From positions 3,206,554 to 3,270,553 of the forward strand of contig JAVDKL010000001.1 in assembly GCA_030849965.1 (NCBI GenBank): 64,000 bases of DNA, read 5' to 3'. A model generated the notes under the pieces. It was not told the origin of the DNA. It saw nothing but the letters and a program-made list of their open reading frames with translations, and made no database searches. The translations under genes were made by a program, and so were the position numbers. Shown piece by piece: positions 27,545 to 33,580 of the stretch (positions are counted from its first letter, which is position 1; each line of letters opens with the position of its first letter). This DNA is from Schauerella fraxinea. Lineage in GTDB: Bacteria > Pseudomonadota > Gammaproteobacteria > Burkholderiales > Burkholderiaceae_B.

Positions 27545-28251
27545 GCGCGATGCTGGAAGTACGCGGGCTGGAAGTCAATTACGGCCACATCGAAGCGGTG
27601 CGCGGCATCGACCTGGATCTGAACGCCAATGCCATCACGGCGCTGGTGGGCGCCAATGGCGCCGGCAAATCGACAACGCTGCTGGCGCTGTCGGGCTTGC
27701 TGCCCAAGGCGCGCGGCAAGGTGCTGTTCGAAGGCGAGGACATCACCAAGCTGGCACCCCATCAGATCGTGGCGCGCGGCATCGTGCAGGTCGCCGAAGG
27801 CCGCGCCATTCTGACCACGATGACCGTGCGCGAGAATCTCGAACTCGGCGCCTATCGCCGCGGCTTGAAGAACGCCGGTACCGATCTCGAATACGTGTTT
27901 CATCTGTTTCCGCGCTTGAAAGAGCGGCTGGAAGGCGTCGCCGGCAATTTGTCGGGCGGTGAACAGCAGATGCTGGCCATCGGCCGCGCGCTCATGGCCA
28001 AGCCGCGCTTGCTGCTGCTCGACGAACCGTCGATGGGCCTGGCACCGATCGTGGTGCAGGACATCTTCCGCTCGCTGCGTGCCATCAATGGCGACGGGCT
28101 CACGCTCTTCCTGGTCGAACAAAACGTGCGTCAGGCGTTGAAGATCGCGCAGCAAGGCTACGTGCTCGAAAACGGCGAGATGGCGCTGTCCGGCGAAGGG
28201 CGCAGTTTGCTGGGCCATCCGCGTGTGCTCGAGGCCTATCTGGGCGGCTGA
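27541..28251 (+). CDS. Branched-chain amino-acid ABC transporter ATP-binding protein (LivF family)
   Basis: A 236-residue ATPase from the ATG at 27541, overlapping the livG stop: Walker A GANGAGKST, APHQIVARGIVQVAEGRAI (LivF-specific Q-loop region), signature LSGGEQQMLAIGRALMA, Walker B LLLLDEPSMGLAP and FLVEQNV switch. It completes the five-component transporter. Confidence 0.96.
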   Translation: MSAMLEVRGLEVNYGHIEAVRGIDLDLNANAITALVGANGAGKSTTLLALSGLLPKARGKVLFEGEDITKLAPHQIVARGIVQVAEGRAILTTMTVRENLELGAYRRGLKNAGTDLEYVFHLFPRLKERLEGVAGNLSGGEQQMLAIGRALMAKPRLLLLDEPSMGLAPIVVQDIFRSLRAINGDGLTLFLVEQNVRQALKIAQQGYVLENGEMALSGEGRSLLGHPRVLEAYLGG

Positions 28252-28271: not shown

Positions 28272-29624
28272 ATGACGCCTCATTCTGCTGATCTTCCCGA
28301 ATCGCCTGCGGTGCCATCGCCCGCAGGCGATTTTTCATGGCCGGCGGCAAGCGCCGCAGGTCACGCCGCGGGCGGTGCCCCTGCCAGCGAGGCTGTCGCC
28401 GCACTTGCCCAAACTTCCGAGAACGCTGTAGTGAACACGCCTGCCATCGCGGTACATACTCCTGCTATTTATATCGGCCGCTTTCAGCCGCCCACCCAGG
28501 CAGACTTTGCCGCCCTGCGACGCATGGCGGCGCGGGGCGCGGGTGGCATCGTGGTGCTGGCCGGCAGCCATCAGGCCCCCTCGCCGCGCCAGCCATTCGA
28601 TTGGCCCACGGTAGCGGCCCTGCTGGCACAAGGGCTCACAACGGAAGAGCAGGCTGCCTTGAGCGTGTTGCCGCTACGCGATGAAGACACCGACAGCTTG
28701 TGGCGCGCGGCGTTGCAACGCACGTTGGCAGACCTTGACCTCTGGCATGACGATAGTCGCCCGGTGCTCACCACCGCTTCCGAAATCGCGACGCTGCACG
28801 ATATCGGCAAGCTGGCAGTGGCGTTGCATGCCGATCTGGGGCCGGTGGCGACGGATTCCGTTGCAACCGAGGGTGCATCGAACGCTACTGGCGTCGCGAT
28901 CGATGTGGCCAGTGAAGCGTCAACCCAGGCGGCTGCTGAGCCTCTGACCGAGACAGCCTTACGCGATCTGCTCTTCGACGCAGATCCTCAAGAGGGCACT
29001 GCACCGGCAACCTTGCCCGATGCCGTCGCGGCCGCGGTGCCCGCGCCGTTGCACGCGCAACTGACGCACTGGATGCAGACGCCGGCTTTCGCCGCGATCG
29101 CCGAAGAATGGCGCGTATTGCGCGGGTATCGCGAAGCGTGGTCGGTCGCGCCTTACCCGCCGATCTTCGTTACCGTGGATACGGTCGTGCATTGCGCGGG
29201 TCGCGTGTTGCTCGTCGAGCGCGGCCAGCACCCAGGCAAGGGGCTTTATGCCGTACCGGGCGGGTTTCTGGAGCCTTCGGAAACGGTGTTTGAAGCTGCC
29301 GTGCGCGAGCTTTGCGAAGAAACCGGCTTGACGCTCGACATGGATGCGGTCGACGCGATCTATCGTGGCGTGGCGGTATTCGATCGACCGGATCGCAGCC
29401 AGCGGGGGCGCACCGTCACGCACGCGCACTACTTCGATCTAGGCGATGGGCCCCTGCCGCAGGTGGAGGGGGCCGACGATGCACTGGCCGCGCATTGGAC
29501 GCCGATCGCAGACCTCGCGGGCCACGCCGATCAGTTTCTCGACGATCACTATCTGATCCTGGAGCACTTCCTGGCGTTGCCGCGCCCGGCGCCGGTGTGG
29601 GCGCCGCTGGCGGTATTTGGTTAG
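28272..29624 (+). CDS. NadM-Nudix fusion with a decayed adenylyltransferase motif
   Basis: The 450-residue protein has two domains. The N-terminal half resembles NMN adenylyltransferase NadM (TPAIYIGRFQPP, then VVLAGSHQAPSPRQPFDW), but the catalytic HxGH after GRFQPP is replaced by TQAD, and the region of the second motif is replaced by an Ala/Thr/Ser-rich stretch at about residues 195-255. The C-terminal half is an intact Nudix domain with GGFLEPSETVFEAAVRELCEETGL matching the Nudix box, and PDRSQRGRTVTHAHYFDLG downstream as in NadM-Nudix proteins. It also has a 65-residue low-complexity N-terminal extension. Probably it acts only as a Nudix hydrolase (ADP-ribose or NAD-related). It follows livF by 20 bases. 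Confidence 0.8.
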   Translation: MTPHSADLPESPAVPSPAGDFSWPAASAAGHAAGGAPASEAVAALAQTSENAVVNTPAIAVHTPAIYIGRFQPPTQADFAALRRMAARGAGGIVVLAGSHQAPSPRQPFDWPTVAALLAQGLTTEEQAALSVLPLRDEDTDSLWRAALQRTLADLDLWHDDSRPVLTTASEIATLHDIGKLAVALHADLGPVATDSVATEGASNATGVAIDVASEASTQAAAEPLTETALRDLLFDADPQEGTAPATLPDAVAAAVPAPLHAQLTHWMQTPAFAAIAEEWRVLRGYREAWSVAPYPPIFVTVDTVVHCAGRVLLVERGQHPGKGLYAVPGGFLEPSETVFEAAVRELCEETGLTLDMDAVDAIYRGVAVFDRPDRSQRGRTVTHAHYFDLGDGPLPQVEGADDALAAHWTPIADLAGHADQFLDDHYLILEHFLALPRPAPVWAPLAVFG

Positions 29625-30166: not shown

Positions 30167-31696
30167 TTACGTTGTTGCGTATTCGCTTGCGAGCGCAATA
30201 TCCTGCACCCAGGCAGCGTAGGCCTCGGGCTTGGATTCTTCCGGCGCGCGCAGTAATGCGGACGGATGAAAGGTGATCAACACCGGCACGCCATCGGGTC
30301 GCGTCATCCACGTGCCGCGCTCGCGCGTTACCGCCACGGCGTGGCCCACGACGGCGCGGGCGGCTGTGGCACCCAAGGCGATGATGGCGGCAGGTTTGAC
30401 CAAGGCAATCTCGCGCTCGAGCCAGTTATCGGCACACACAGCGGCTTCGTGCTGAGTGGGGGTCTTGTGAATGCGCCGCTTGCCGCGCGGCTCGAATTTG
30501 AAGTGCTTGACCGCGTTGGTGACGTACATCACGCTGCGGTCCCAGCCCAGTTCAGCCAGGGCGCGGTCGAAGAGCTTGCCGGCGGGTCCCACGAACGGGC
30601 GACCCTGCAGATCCTCCTGATCCCCCGGTTGTTCGCCCACGATCATCAGGCGGGCCTGATCCGGCCCCTCGCCGCAGACGGCCTGGGTCGCATGCTCGCC
30701 GATGGGACAGGCCCGGCAACGCGAGGCGGCATGGCGCAAGGCGTCCAACGATTCGATCACCACGTCGTCGCCGAGCGGCTGGGTATGCATCGGCGTCGCG
30801 TCGGCAACTGCCGGACCGTTGCGTGGCCGGCGTTTGGCAGGCACGGTGGCCTCGCGGTCGATCATGTCCTGCGTGCGGTAGGCGGCCTCGGCGGTGAGCG
30901 GTGCGATGAGCACCGCTTCAGGCAAGTTTGCCCAATACCGGCGCGGCATTTCCTTTTCCATCATCTTCACCTTCAAGCGCGCGGGATTGAAGATGTGCTT
31001 GTAGTAGGTGAGCCATAACTGCTCGCCGGCGTCGGCTTCCGGCGCCTGATCGCGCCGGGCACCACCGGTGAACGACAGCGTGTGCAGGTCCCACTGCACA
31101 CAGCGCTCGGGCGTCATGATGGCCCACCGCATGCTGGTGAAACGCTTCTGAAAAAATGGGGTCACTGCGTCGACGATGTGGTGCATGGGTTCGAACCACG
31201 CCACGTGTACCGGCTCGCCGCCATCCGGATCGGCAATCGGCCGAAAGCGCACGAAGGCTTTCATCTTGTGCAGATCGCGGCGCACTTCGCGGGCCATGTC
31301 TTCAAGGCGCAGCCGGTCGGGATCGAGCGTATCGTCGCGCAGCGACGGCTGGTGCACCAGCCGCCACAGCATGCGGTAGAGCAGCGCAAAACGATGCGGC
31401 TCGCGATGCAGGATCACGGTCTCGCACCATTGCAGAAAGAAGGCCGGCACGCGCGGCGCATTGGCCGGCACCGGGCTATCGGGCGACACGGCTGGAAGCG
31501 TATCGGGGCCGGAGGCAAACAAGTCGCCTGTGCGGCCCTCGGCCAGCATCCAAGTCACTTGCTGCGGCGGCACTTCGGCGATGAGCAGGGCGCGGGCTTG
31601 CGTACGAAAGCCTGCCAGATCGGTAGCACTTTCGAGCACGGCCGTGCGCATCGAGGGCGAAGGGGGCAGGTCGGGTAACGGTGCTTGGGACATCAT
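30167..31696 (-). CDS. DUF4130-UdgX fusion: uracil-DNA-binding repair protein
   Basis: A 509-residue two-domain protein. Residues about 20-270 are the DUF4130 domain (partner of a radical SAM protein): FFLQWCETVILHREPHRFALLYRML, MKAFVRFRPI and FTSMRWAIMTPERCVQWD. After a linker, residues about 310-505 are a UdgX-type uracil-DNA glycosylase superfamily domain: CRACPIGEHATQAVCGEGP (Fe-S cysteines), GEQPGDQEDLQGRPFVGPAGKL and the UdgX-specific loop KRRIHKTPTQHE, whose His in UdgX bonds covalently to the uracil site. A terminal HPSALLR follows. It lies 10 bases after the radical SAM gene and shares its LexA-controlled promoter. Confidence 0.9.
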   Translation of the reverse strand: MMSQAPLPDLPPSPSMRTAVLESATDLAGFRTQARALLIAEVPPQQVTWMLAEGRTGDLFASGPDTLPAVSPDSPVPANAPRVPAFFLQWCETVILHREPHRFALLYRMLWRLVHQPSLRDDTLDPDRLRLEDMAREVRRDLHKMKAFVRFRPIADPDGGEPVHVAWFEPMHHIVDAVTPFFQKRFTSMRWAIMTPERCVQWDLHTLSFTGGARRDQAPEADAGEQLWLTYYKHIFNPARLKVKMMEKEMPRRYWANLPEAVLIAPLTAEAAYRTQDMIDREATVPAKRRPRNGPAVADATPMHTQPLGDDVVIESLDALRHAASRCRACPIGEHATQAVCGEGPDQARLMIVGEQPGDQEDLQGRPFVGPAGKLFDRALAELGWDRSVMYVTNAVKHFKFEPRGKRRIHKTPTQHEAAVCADNWLEREIALVKPAAIIALGATAARAVVGHAVAVTRERGTWMTRPDGVPVLITFHPSALLRAPEESKPEAYAAWVQDIALASEYATT

Positions 31697-31706
31697 GAAT
31701 CACGCG

Positions 31707-33317
31707 TCAGGCGGCAACAGTCTCGCGGCGCGGGGGCGCGTCGTCGAACAGGCCGCGCTGCGCAGGCGCCGGCGCGACCGGGGCACGCTGGGCCGGTCGC
31801 GATTGAGATGATGGCGATTGAGAGGGCGCCGACTGAGCCGGTGCCGATCGCGCCTGCGCTGACCGCGCCTGCGCCGATTGAGACGGTGCCGTCGGAACTG
31901 GCACCCGATGGGCCGCTGCAAATGGCACGCTCCTCGCCTCAGGCAGGGCCGCCCACGTACTGGTCGTCGAGGCAGATTCTGAGCCGGAATGAGGCGATGC
32001 GCCCGCTAAGCCGGAGGTGGGTGCCCCATCAGCGCTTTGTGCGTCGAACAGCCCGCCCTGTGCCGGTGGCGGCCGCAGGCGTTGCGCCAGATCGGCCGCG
32101 TCGAGGGTGCGGCCGGGATGGTGATCGAGCACGCAGATGAAGGGCATGATCTTTTTCAACGACACATGAAGCCGGGACAAATCATCCAGGCGCAAGCGTC
32201 GCACCCGTCGGGTTTGCAGCAGCCGTTCGATCGTTTTGACCCCAAGACCCGGCACACGCAAGAGCAATTCCTTCGGCGCACGGTTGAGGTCGACCGGAAA
32301 TTTTTCGCGATGGGCCAATGCCCACGCCAGCTTGGGATCGATATCCAGATCGAGCATGCCGTCGCCGGCCGACACGATTTCGTGATGCTCGAAACCGTAA
32401 AACCGCATCAACCAATCGGCTTGATAGAGGCGGTGCTCGCGCATCATCGGGGGAGCCGCCAACGGCAAAGCGCGCGCGGCATCCGGAATCGGGCTGAAGG
32501 CCGAGTAGTACACCCGCCGCAAGCGGTACGACCCGTACAGCGTGGCGCTGGCCGTCAGGATCGTGCGATCGTCGGTAGCGTCGGCACCCACGATCATCTG
32601 CGTGCTTTGGCCGCCCGGTGCGAAGCGCGGCGCGGCGGCGCGCCGGGGCGGCGTTTGCGGACGCGATGTGGATGCGGTGGCCGGTTGGGCCGCACTGCGG
32701 GCATCATCGCGAGCATTGTCGATATGAACGCGCAACCGCGCCATGCTGCGCCGGATCCCGGCACTGTCCTTTTCGGGGGCCAATGCATGCAGGCTTTGCG
32801 TGGTGGGCAGCTCTACGTTGATGCTCAACCGATCCGCATACTTGCCGGCGCGCGCCAGCAGATCGTCGCTGGCATCAGGAATGGTTTTGAGGTGGATGTA
32901 GCCGCGAAAATCGTGATCCTCACGCAGGCTGCGCGCCACTTCCACCACCTGCTCCATGGTGTAGTCGGAATCGCGGATGATGCCGGAGCTGAGAAACAGC
33001 CCTTCGATGCAGTTGCGCCGGTAAAAATCCAGCGTGAGCTGCACGACCTCTTCGGCCGTGAAGCGTGCGCGCGGCACGTTGCTGCTCACGCGGTTCACGC
33101 AGTATTGGCAGTCGTACAGGCAATAGTTGGTGAGCAGGATCTTGAGCAGCGAAATGCATCGGCCATCGGGCGCATAGCTGTGGCAGATGCCCATTCCTTC
33201 AGTCGAGCCGATCCCCCGGCCGCCCACTGAATCCCGCTTGGACGTCCCGCTGGAGGCGCACGACGCATCGTATTTGGCGGCGTCGGCAAGAATGGCTAAC
33301 TTTCGATTTAAAGTCAC
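31707..33317 (-). CDS. Radical SAM DNA modification/repair protein with two clamp-type motifs
   Basis: From the GTG at 33317 the product has 536 residues. It begins KLAILADAAKYDASCASSG, the usual family start, and carries the radical SAM cluster motif NYCLYDCQYC (CxxxCxxC) at about residues 65-74. A helix-hairpin-helix DNA-binding segment VPGLGVKTIERLL lies near residue 370. The last 110 residues are low-complexity Ser/Ala/Gln/Pro and are bracketed by QGGLF (coding bases 32046-32060) and QRGLF (31746-31760), both matching the bacterial sliding-clamp QxxLF peptide. The chemistry is unknown; family members always pair with DUF4130. Upstream in-frame codons exist but lack similarity. Confidence 0.85.
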   Translation of the reverse strand: MTLNRKLAILADAAKYDASCASSGTSKRDSVGGRGIGSTEGMGICHSYAPDGRCISLLKILLTNYCLYDCQYCVNRVSSNVPRARFTAEEVVQLTLDFYRRNCIEGLFLSSGIIRDSDYTMEQVVEVARSLREDHDFRGYIHLKTIPDASDDLLARAGKYADRLSINVELPTTQSLHALAPEKDSAGIRRSMARLRVHIDNARDDARSAAQPATASTSRPQTPPRRAAAPRFAPGGQSTQMIVGADATDDRTILTASATLYGSYRLRRVYYSAFSPIPDAARALPLAAPPMMREHRLYQADWLMRFYGFEHHEIVSAGDGMLDLDIDPKLAWALAHREKFPVDLNRAPKELLLRVPGLGVKTIERLLQTRRVRRLRLDDLSRLHVSLKKIMPFICVLDHHPGRTLDAADLAQRLRPPPAQGGLFDAQSADGAPTSGLAGASPHSGSESASTTSTWAALPEARSVPFAAAHRVPVPTAPSQSAQARSAQARSAPAQSAPSQSPSSQSRPAQRAPVAPAPAQRGLFDDAPPRRETVAA

Positions 33318-33332
33318 TGTACAAATATACAG
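33317..33332. promoter_or_regulatory. LexA (SOS) box
   Basis: CTGTACAAATATACAG fits the LexA consensus CTGT-N8-ACAG with an AT-only spacer apart from its ends and differs little from the ideal CTGTATATATATACAG. It abuts the GTG start of the radical SAM gene, so LexA bound here would block transcription of the repair operon. Confidence 0.85.
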
Positions 33333-33580
33333 TAAATCGAAAAAGCAAGCAGGCGACTTCAACTCAACCCATGGCGCTACCGCACAGCGCGCTTGAAGGC
33401 CGATTGCAGGGTCGGATCGGTTGGGCGCCCAAGCAACCTTCGATGCCGAGCATGGACGGGCTGCTGTGGTGGGTTGCTCCGCGTGCCGCAGCGTCGCTTC
33501 TGTTCCGGCAATCCAAGGTTTCAAGGTGGCCGCAGTCTACGAACGCACGCTCAAAGCAAGAGTCAAACTGCCTTGTCGGT

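Follow-up and report, generated by a model that had tools for sequence, protein, structure and literature searches.

A Schauerella NadM-Nudix protein with an intact Nudix domain and a degenerate, probably non-catalytic NMN adenylyltransferase domain

The gene and its start codon

The window, i.e., the whole 64,000-nucleotide stretch of the 5.37 Mb Schauerella fraxinea genome analysed here, holds a forward-strand reading frame of 450 residues that runs from the ATG at 28272 to 29624. It encodes a NadM-Nudix protein; its features are listed in Table 1, and residue numbers refer to this frame throughout. The original prediction had located the protein at 28440-29000, a span that does include the altered adenylyltransferase motif but is the middle of the gene only. 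Upstream, the liv operon ends at 28251. Downstream, a response-regulator gene lies between the NadM-Nudix gene and a convergent pair, i.e., a DUF4130/uracil-DNA-glycosylase (UDG) fusion and the adjoining radical-SAM gene (30167-31696 and 31707-33524, both on the reverse strand). Operon context was rejected as a functional clue: the liv operon probably has its own terminator, the downstream gene is convergent, and a functional link is seen on neither side.

Table 1. Features of the NadM-Nudix locus (window positions; residues of the 450-residue frame).
Feature	Position	Strand	Basis or remark
Probable liv (branched-chain amino acid ABC transporter) operon terminator	28299..28335	+	15-pair predicted stem, conserved in sibling species
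NadM-Nudix gene, NadM domain predicted to be inactive	28431..29624	+	likelier start GTG 28431, 397 aa; nominal ATG frame 28272-29624, 450 aa
NadM (NMN adenylyltransferase) domain, predicted to be catalytically degenerate	28458..28835	+	residues 63-188; conserved-column losses and alignment to 1ej2
TQAD replacing HxGH	28494..28505	+	sequence and alignment with relatives
Low-complexity linker, indel between species	28836..28949	+	site of the last NMNAT strand in the intact model; pLDDT < 50 at 197-220
Nudix domain, ADP-ribose pyrophosphatase type of NadM	29166..29579	+	residues 299-436; profile and sequence searches, conserved columns
Nudix box GFLEPSETVFEAAVRELCEETGL, intact	29262..29330	+	residues 331-353

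The terminator-like stem is situated inside codons 10-22 of the nominal frame. Its outer three pairs draw on part of the U run, and its folding z-score is -3.3 in the window (4/200 shuffles equal or better) and -5.5 in the sibling species S. aestuarii (L032; 0/200), where the alignment shows the stem kept with one G-C to G-U change. The stem scan lists just a shorter stem (28316-28331), with 0.5 expected by chance. Most simply, the stem is the terminator of the liv operon, such that a protein annotated from ATG 28272 may carry 53 surplus residues. The GC content at the three codon positions is 0.75, 0.70 and 0.53 before 28431, compared to 0.72, 0.52 and 0.74 in the NadM part and 0.75, 0.47 and 0.76 in the Nudix part; the linker is intermediate (0.75, 0.60, 0.63). 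Given both the terminator and the odd codon-position GC before 28431, GTG 28431 is the likelier start, although a mild synonymous excess in residues 2-63 (dN/dS 0.40, p 0.004) counts against it. Residues 1-55 have AlphaFold2 pLDDT values below 50, and codons 1-53 of the nominal frame look mostly untranslated.

Conservation, predicted structure and selection

The Nudix box, which the original prediction had described as intact, indeed agrees with the consensus Gx5Ex7REUxEExGU. PF00293 is matched with 65.2 bits (cut-off 21.1), and the sequence comparison of 2qjo with the Nudix part yields an i-Evalue of 5.8e-44. Downstream of the box, the VFDxPxRSQRGR block is present: in the 46 alignment rows, V369-D371, P373 and R375-R380 are invariant, and positions 372 and 374 are near-invariant, with 372 being Arg in Schauerella and His in most rows. 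The conserved columns of the NadM-type ADP-ribose pyrophosphatases are kept at 54/56 positions. The winged-helix domain PF21906 (NrtR-like) is absent, and the Pfam scan of the window protein shows NUDIX alone above its cut-off, with no CTP_transf_like match for the N part. With regard to the substrate, one review has the Nudix domain of NadM cleaving NAD itself (PMC9503650), which makes the substrate uncertain even for intact members.

The NadM part differs. Residues 66-79 read IYIGRFQPPTQADF, including GRFQPPTQADF at window positions 28476-28508 (residues 69-79). That is, HxGH is replaced by TQAD in both Schauerella species and both histidines are gone (T75, D78), exactly as had been proposed from the window. 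Section 7 of one article gives the NMNAT motif as H/TXGH, i.e., natural enzymes tolerate Thr at the first position, and the same source describes a cyanobacterial NMNAT in which mutating either His to Ala caused a substantial drop in activity and mutating both abolished nearly all of it (PMC13036487). Since a first-position Thr also occurs in the superfamily, the replacement of the second His by Asp is the telling loss. To our knowledge, there is no active NMNAT with Asp for the second His of HxGH. Based on the motif losses and the mutant data (PMC13036487), NMN adenylyltransferase activity is predicted to be absent, and the protein should not be filed as a working NMNAT given its lack of HxGH.

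The comparison of conserved columns used 121 aligned proteins, i.e., 2 from Schauerella and 119 others, which were left of 126 collected proteins after removal of five duplicates (L017, L018, L159, L173, L156). A column was considered conserved if it reached at least 90% in the 119 relatives. Protein starts in this set were scripted, in most cases as the Met closest upstream of the motif, and L079, L102 and L111 were cut back to a start of this kind. The NadM domain keeps 15/37 conserved columns and has changed 22/37, compared to the 54/56 kept in the Nudix domain (Fisher p 1.4e-9; 119 relatives), where some of the 22 losses may be one-residue alignment offsets since the GS in the loop that follows the second strand seems displaced by one position (AGSHQ vs. 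GSCHQ). The retained columns are I68, G69, R70, F71, V94, P105, P108, F109, P134, R136, D137, W144, L175, R231 and F235. The losses include, in the numbering of the intact Pigmentiphaga protein L078, the catalytic H18 as well as R46, E56-R57, G109, D113, Y118 and W125. H21 (D78 in Schauerella) is lost as well; its column is just under the 90% line because of a group of relatives with HxxQ.

The NadM score is 0.41 in Schauerella vs. 0.76 for the next lowest relative, and the Schauerella Nudix score is 0.96. Mean identity to six intact references is 29% for the N domain and 62% for the Nudix domain; the difference of the two identities is -0.33 in Schauerella, compared to 112 others that average -0.08 and go no lower than -0.17. 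The NadM part is recognised weakly by the NCBIfam archaeal-type model NF002243 (E 0.004) and by 2qjo (i-Evalue 0.00086). The top NCBIfam match, NF003786 (E 3.4e-67), reaches 227 bits and stays under its cut-off of 397, but so do the intact proteins of Pigmentiphaga (L078, 316 bits) and Bordetella (L053, 318 bits). We therefore rejected the low NCBIfam score as proof of non-membership: L078, L053 and the HxxQ protein L111 are also under cut-offs. The order of NadM followed by Nudix in one chain is recovered by NF003786 as well as by 2qjo, the latter both by sequence and by fold.

The AlphaFold2 model of the window protein was computed from an alignment of 46 rows, mostly intact relatives, and thus leans towards the intact fold. 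Block-mean pLDDT is 85-96 for residues 61-160 and 90-98 for residues 251-450 (except 77 at 371-380), while it drops to 50, 32 and 38 across residues 191-220; the overall mean is 78.8, compared to 93 for the intact Pigmentiphaga protein modelled by the same procedure. The model aligns to the NadM-Nudix crystal structure 2qjo_B (336 residues long) over 334 residues with Z 35.4 and rmsd 2.3, and its residues 63-280 align to 165 of the 167 residues of 1ej2, an archaeal NMNAT with NAD, with Z 15.0 and rmsd 2.6 (both VIA-align). Target-normalised Foldseek TM-scores to 2qjo_B are 0.89 for the Schauerella and 0.94 for the Pigmentiphaga model. The NadM-derived domain is thus predicted to keep its fold. 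The Schauerella model lacks the strand found at 126-130 in the intact model and retains the one before it (E165-168). The low-complexity stretch that had been said to replace the rest of the nucleotide site is real (residues about 189-226); the segment preceding it, however, is still predicted as NMNAT core.

Selection was assessed by Nei-Gojobori dN/dS between the window species and S. aestuarii, i.e., on a single pair, since these two genomes make up the Schauerella sample. The ratio is 0.043 for residues 64-113, 0.163 for residues 114-188 and 0.118 for residues 64-188 as a whole (bootstrap 0.056-0.214), compared to 0.065 for Nudix residues 299-436 and 0.50 for linker residues 189-255; 14 linker residues of the window protein are missing from the sibling protein. 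Residues 64-188 show 33.5 synonymous vs. 14.5 non-synonymous differences, a synonymous excess with p 3e-12 against neutrality. The NadM-domain ratio is below that of residues 256-436 in 15% of the bootstraps. That is, constraint on the degenerate domain is somewhat weaker than on the Nudix domain but comparable in magnitude, and over the 50 residues around TQAD it is just as strong. Given this purifying selection and the predicted retention of the fold, the domain probably still has a job. The term 'vestigial' used in the original prediction is thus misleading for the domain.

Relatives and genome context

S. aestuarii (deposited as Achromobacter aestuarii; L010/L032, G001) carries the same TQAD and has the whole frame in common at 86-87% identity. 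Since it was sequenced separately, a sequencing error is excluded. Outside Schauerella, TQAD was found in 0/119 relatives and in 0/29 proteins of the order sample, two sets that may overlap. The family search covered 268 genomes, 16 of them with a match of E 1e-30 or better; TQAD occurs in the 2 Schauerella genomes, and in the other 14, all 15 loci that match are HxxH, with at most six candidates scored per genome, such that weak relatives could be missed. The order sample comprised 399 genomes, of which 33 have a match at E 1e-40; 29 of the 44 matches (excluding the window's own) were read and all are HxxH. A scan of named genomes covered the best 80 of 313 relatives, one being S. aestuarii. 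We found no report of a NadM-Nudix protein with a dead NadM domain in the open-licence literature searched.

With regard to the HxGH motif, the 119 relatives split into 106 HxxH, 12 HxxQ and 1 LxxH. The HxxQ proteins (L079, L089, L102, L111, L160-L167) stem from two Variovorax, a Polaromonas MAG, a Comamonadaceae MAG and eight genomes from the search around V. beijingensis. They read FHNAQ or similar at the motif. As in Schauerella, the second catalytic His is lost; unlike in Schauerella, the first is kept, and none of these proteins is among the 30 lowest NadM scores. Six of the twelve were placed in a tree, where they form one clade (99 SH-aLRT), and a second NAPRTase is present in 3/3 of the HxxQ genomes checked. 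Judged by their motif, the HxxQ proteins may be impaired or altered NMNATs. The LxxH protein (L172, from the genus search around V. beijingensis) has Leu for the first His, and the Arg of the E-R pair is lost in 5/119 relatives, all from the Variovorax searches (L105, L182, L183, L184, L186). The HxxQ and E-R changes suggest that the NadM half erodes repeatedly in the order.

The known NadM-Nudix proteins of Synechocystis (2qjo) and Francisella (2qjt, 2r5w) have the same two domains in the same order and an intact Nudix domain as in Schauerella; the Schauerella protein departs from them by TQAD instead of HxGH, by the 22/37 lost NadM columns and by its extra linker. One table lists both as ADP-ribose pyrophosphatases (PMC5389931). 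Among closer relatives, Pigmentiphaga litoralis (L078/L017, G095) and a genome of the same genus (L019, G115) show 54-55% identity over query residues 229-437; unlike Schauerella, Pigmentiphaga has HLGH and, at each of the 14 key NadM positions, the residue that is most frequent there. The Bordetella ansorpii protein (L018 = L070) belongs to the same family (44% identity), and HxGH is intact in the proteins of both B. ansorpii and B. genomosp. 13 (L070, L053), again unlike Schauerella. In B. genomosp. 13, NadM-Nudix follows a frame without Pfam hit, which we take to be a nicotinamidase, a NAPRTase and a NAD synthase, and a divergently oriented NrtR gene lies upstream; this stretch (L053:209-6077) looks like a complete, regulated NAD salvage cluster. 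NrtR is an ADP-ribose-binding Nudix regulator, i.e., a Nudix-fold protein turned sensor in NAD metabolism. Its Nudix domain aligns with that of Schauerella (3gz8, Z 19.1). In NrtR, it is the Nudix domain that lost catalysis, whereas in the Schauerella protein the adenylyltransferase domain did, as far as its motif tells. The NrtR gene of L053 carries PF21906, the winged-helix domain that the Schauerella protein lacks.

The Schauerella genome has three CTP_transf_like loci, namely CoaD, NadD and an HldE-type domain. NadD passes TIGR00482 (145.6 vs. cut-off 112.45), such that a separate nadD, the presence of which was to be checked, exists. The window protein's other matches in its own genome are just Nudix parts with the preceding helices (query residues 250-363). 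There are also one NAPRTase of the PncB type and one CinA-family locus. CinA is the family of the NMN deamidase PncC, and the Schauerella locus is a putative NMN deamidase.

A second NAPRTase is found at most 2.2 kb (match to match) from NadM-Nudix in 9/11 intact genomes (G002, G011, G067, G076, G099, G102, G119, G134, G138); the second NadM-Nudix copy of G002 has no NAPRTase nearby. The remaining two are G095 with a single NAPRTase and G115, whose second NAPRTase lies elsewhere with none near NadM-Nudix. Five of the nine partner NAPRTases were typed: three are PncB-like (L112, L113, L114) and two of the NF006629 type (L135, L139), presumably NadV-like. For phages, a review reports NadM always together with NadV (PMC9503650). 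Each of six searched genomes without NadM-Nudix match has one NAPRTase. With its single NAPRTase, Schauerella thus resembles at this step the genomes that lack NadM-Nudix.

The neighbourhood bears on the origin of the locus. G095 and G115 carry a DUF4130/UDG gene, 62% identical to the window's, that is convergent with the intact NadM-Nudix gene at a match-to-match distance of about 2.3 kb. L078 (G095) also has a radical-SAM gene beside NadM-Nudix (76% over 235 residues), with two other predicted genes between. In G011, G067, G076, G134 and G206, NadM-Nudix and the UDG gene are far apart or on different contigs, where in 4/5 the UDG match is just 40-43% identical and may be a paralogue. The shared gene order points to a common ancestral locus with Pigmentiphaga and is the one sign of this link. 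In the Nudix-part tree (64 rows, quick method, no bootstrap), a long branch (1.11) leads to the Schauerella pair, and the fork that it shares with Bordetella, Pigmentiphaga, Sphaerotilaceae and others is not resolved; Pigmentiphaga does not come out as sister of the pair.

Interpretation

We consider it probable that the protein is an ADP-ribose-type Nudix hydrolase whose non-catalytic NMN-adenylyltransferase domain is kept for a structural or binding role. The intact Bordetella and Pigmentiphaga relatives, the separate nadD and the conserved Nudix domain support, on the level of sequence, the earlier view of a once bifunctional enzyme that is now a Nudix hydrolase. Under this explanation, the phosphoribosyltransferase that is the partner in the salvage operon would have been lost from the Schauerella lineage, or absent from the outset, and NMN would be handled by NMN deamidase and NadD. 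The adenylyltransferase site would thereby have been free to degenerate, presumably in this order of events, while the NadM domain would still be needed for folding, assembly or ligand binding. The C-terminal Nudix domain would be the working enzyme, most likely converting ADP-ribose to AMP and ribose 5-phosphate. Partner loss alone does not account for the decay, since the intact G095 has one NAPRTase and G115 none nearby. The retention of several conserved NMNAT columns (G69, R70, R136, D137, W144, R231) counts against the reading of lost catalysis.

Such retained columns (G69-R70, R136-D137, W144 and R231) would also fit a domain that binds NMN, NaMN or NAD unreacted and thereby sets Nudix activity; the retained Asp and Trp presumably correspond to nicotinamide-side residues of archaeal NMNAT, and dN/dS in residues 64-113 is no higher than in the Nudix domain. 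The same residues may serve folding instead, Schauerella positions 103, 113 and 114 no longer hold the Arg, Glu and Arg that relatives conserve, most conserved columns near the last strand are lost as well, and no hint of sensing is found among the neighbouring genes. We regard such a sensor as unlikely, and slightly more so its specific form in which binding of the nicotinamide end of NMN or NAD to the domain would switch the ADP-ribose hydrolase to which it is fused. If true, a salvage enzyme would have turned into a self-contained NAD-status valve. The strong conservation around TQAD could alternatively reflect other nucleotidyltransferase chemistry, kept or gained with an altered active site, and the motif given for active NMNATs does allow a first-position Thr (PMC13036487). 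Yet the second His, the E-R pair and the conserved Arg at reference position 46 are lost together with most of the relatives' GxxKD and YLxxFPxW columns (Lys kept), such that this option is very improbable.

That the N-terminal domain is merely decaying and has no role would agree with the loss of most catalytic columns, with the low-complexity stretch within the domain and with a domain dN/dS somewhat above that of Nudix. The synonymous excess in residues 64-188, the open frame and the identical TQAD in both species argue otherwise; simple decay is largely refuted by the dN/dS of the one species pair, and we give it a slim chance. An artefact, i.e., misassembly, a frameshift or a wrong frame, has in its favour the first 53 codons only. 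For the NadM domain itself, it is refuted by the sibling genome with its separately sequenced, identical motif, and we deem it scarcely credible. Sequencing error and recent pseudogene formation were likewise rejected given the sibling's frame and motif and the purifying selection on the domain.

With regard to annotation, a best-hit procedure would assign the protein the name NMN adenylyltransferase/Nudix enzyme, and metabolic models built on this would include a step that the organism probably lacks. With regard to the family, the putatively non-catalytic domain provides a natural experiment, in which one domain of a fused enzyme is without catalysis, its partner is intact and the dead domain is nevertheless selected. 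The non-catalytic contribution of NadM to the Nudix enzyme would thus be directly measurable.
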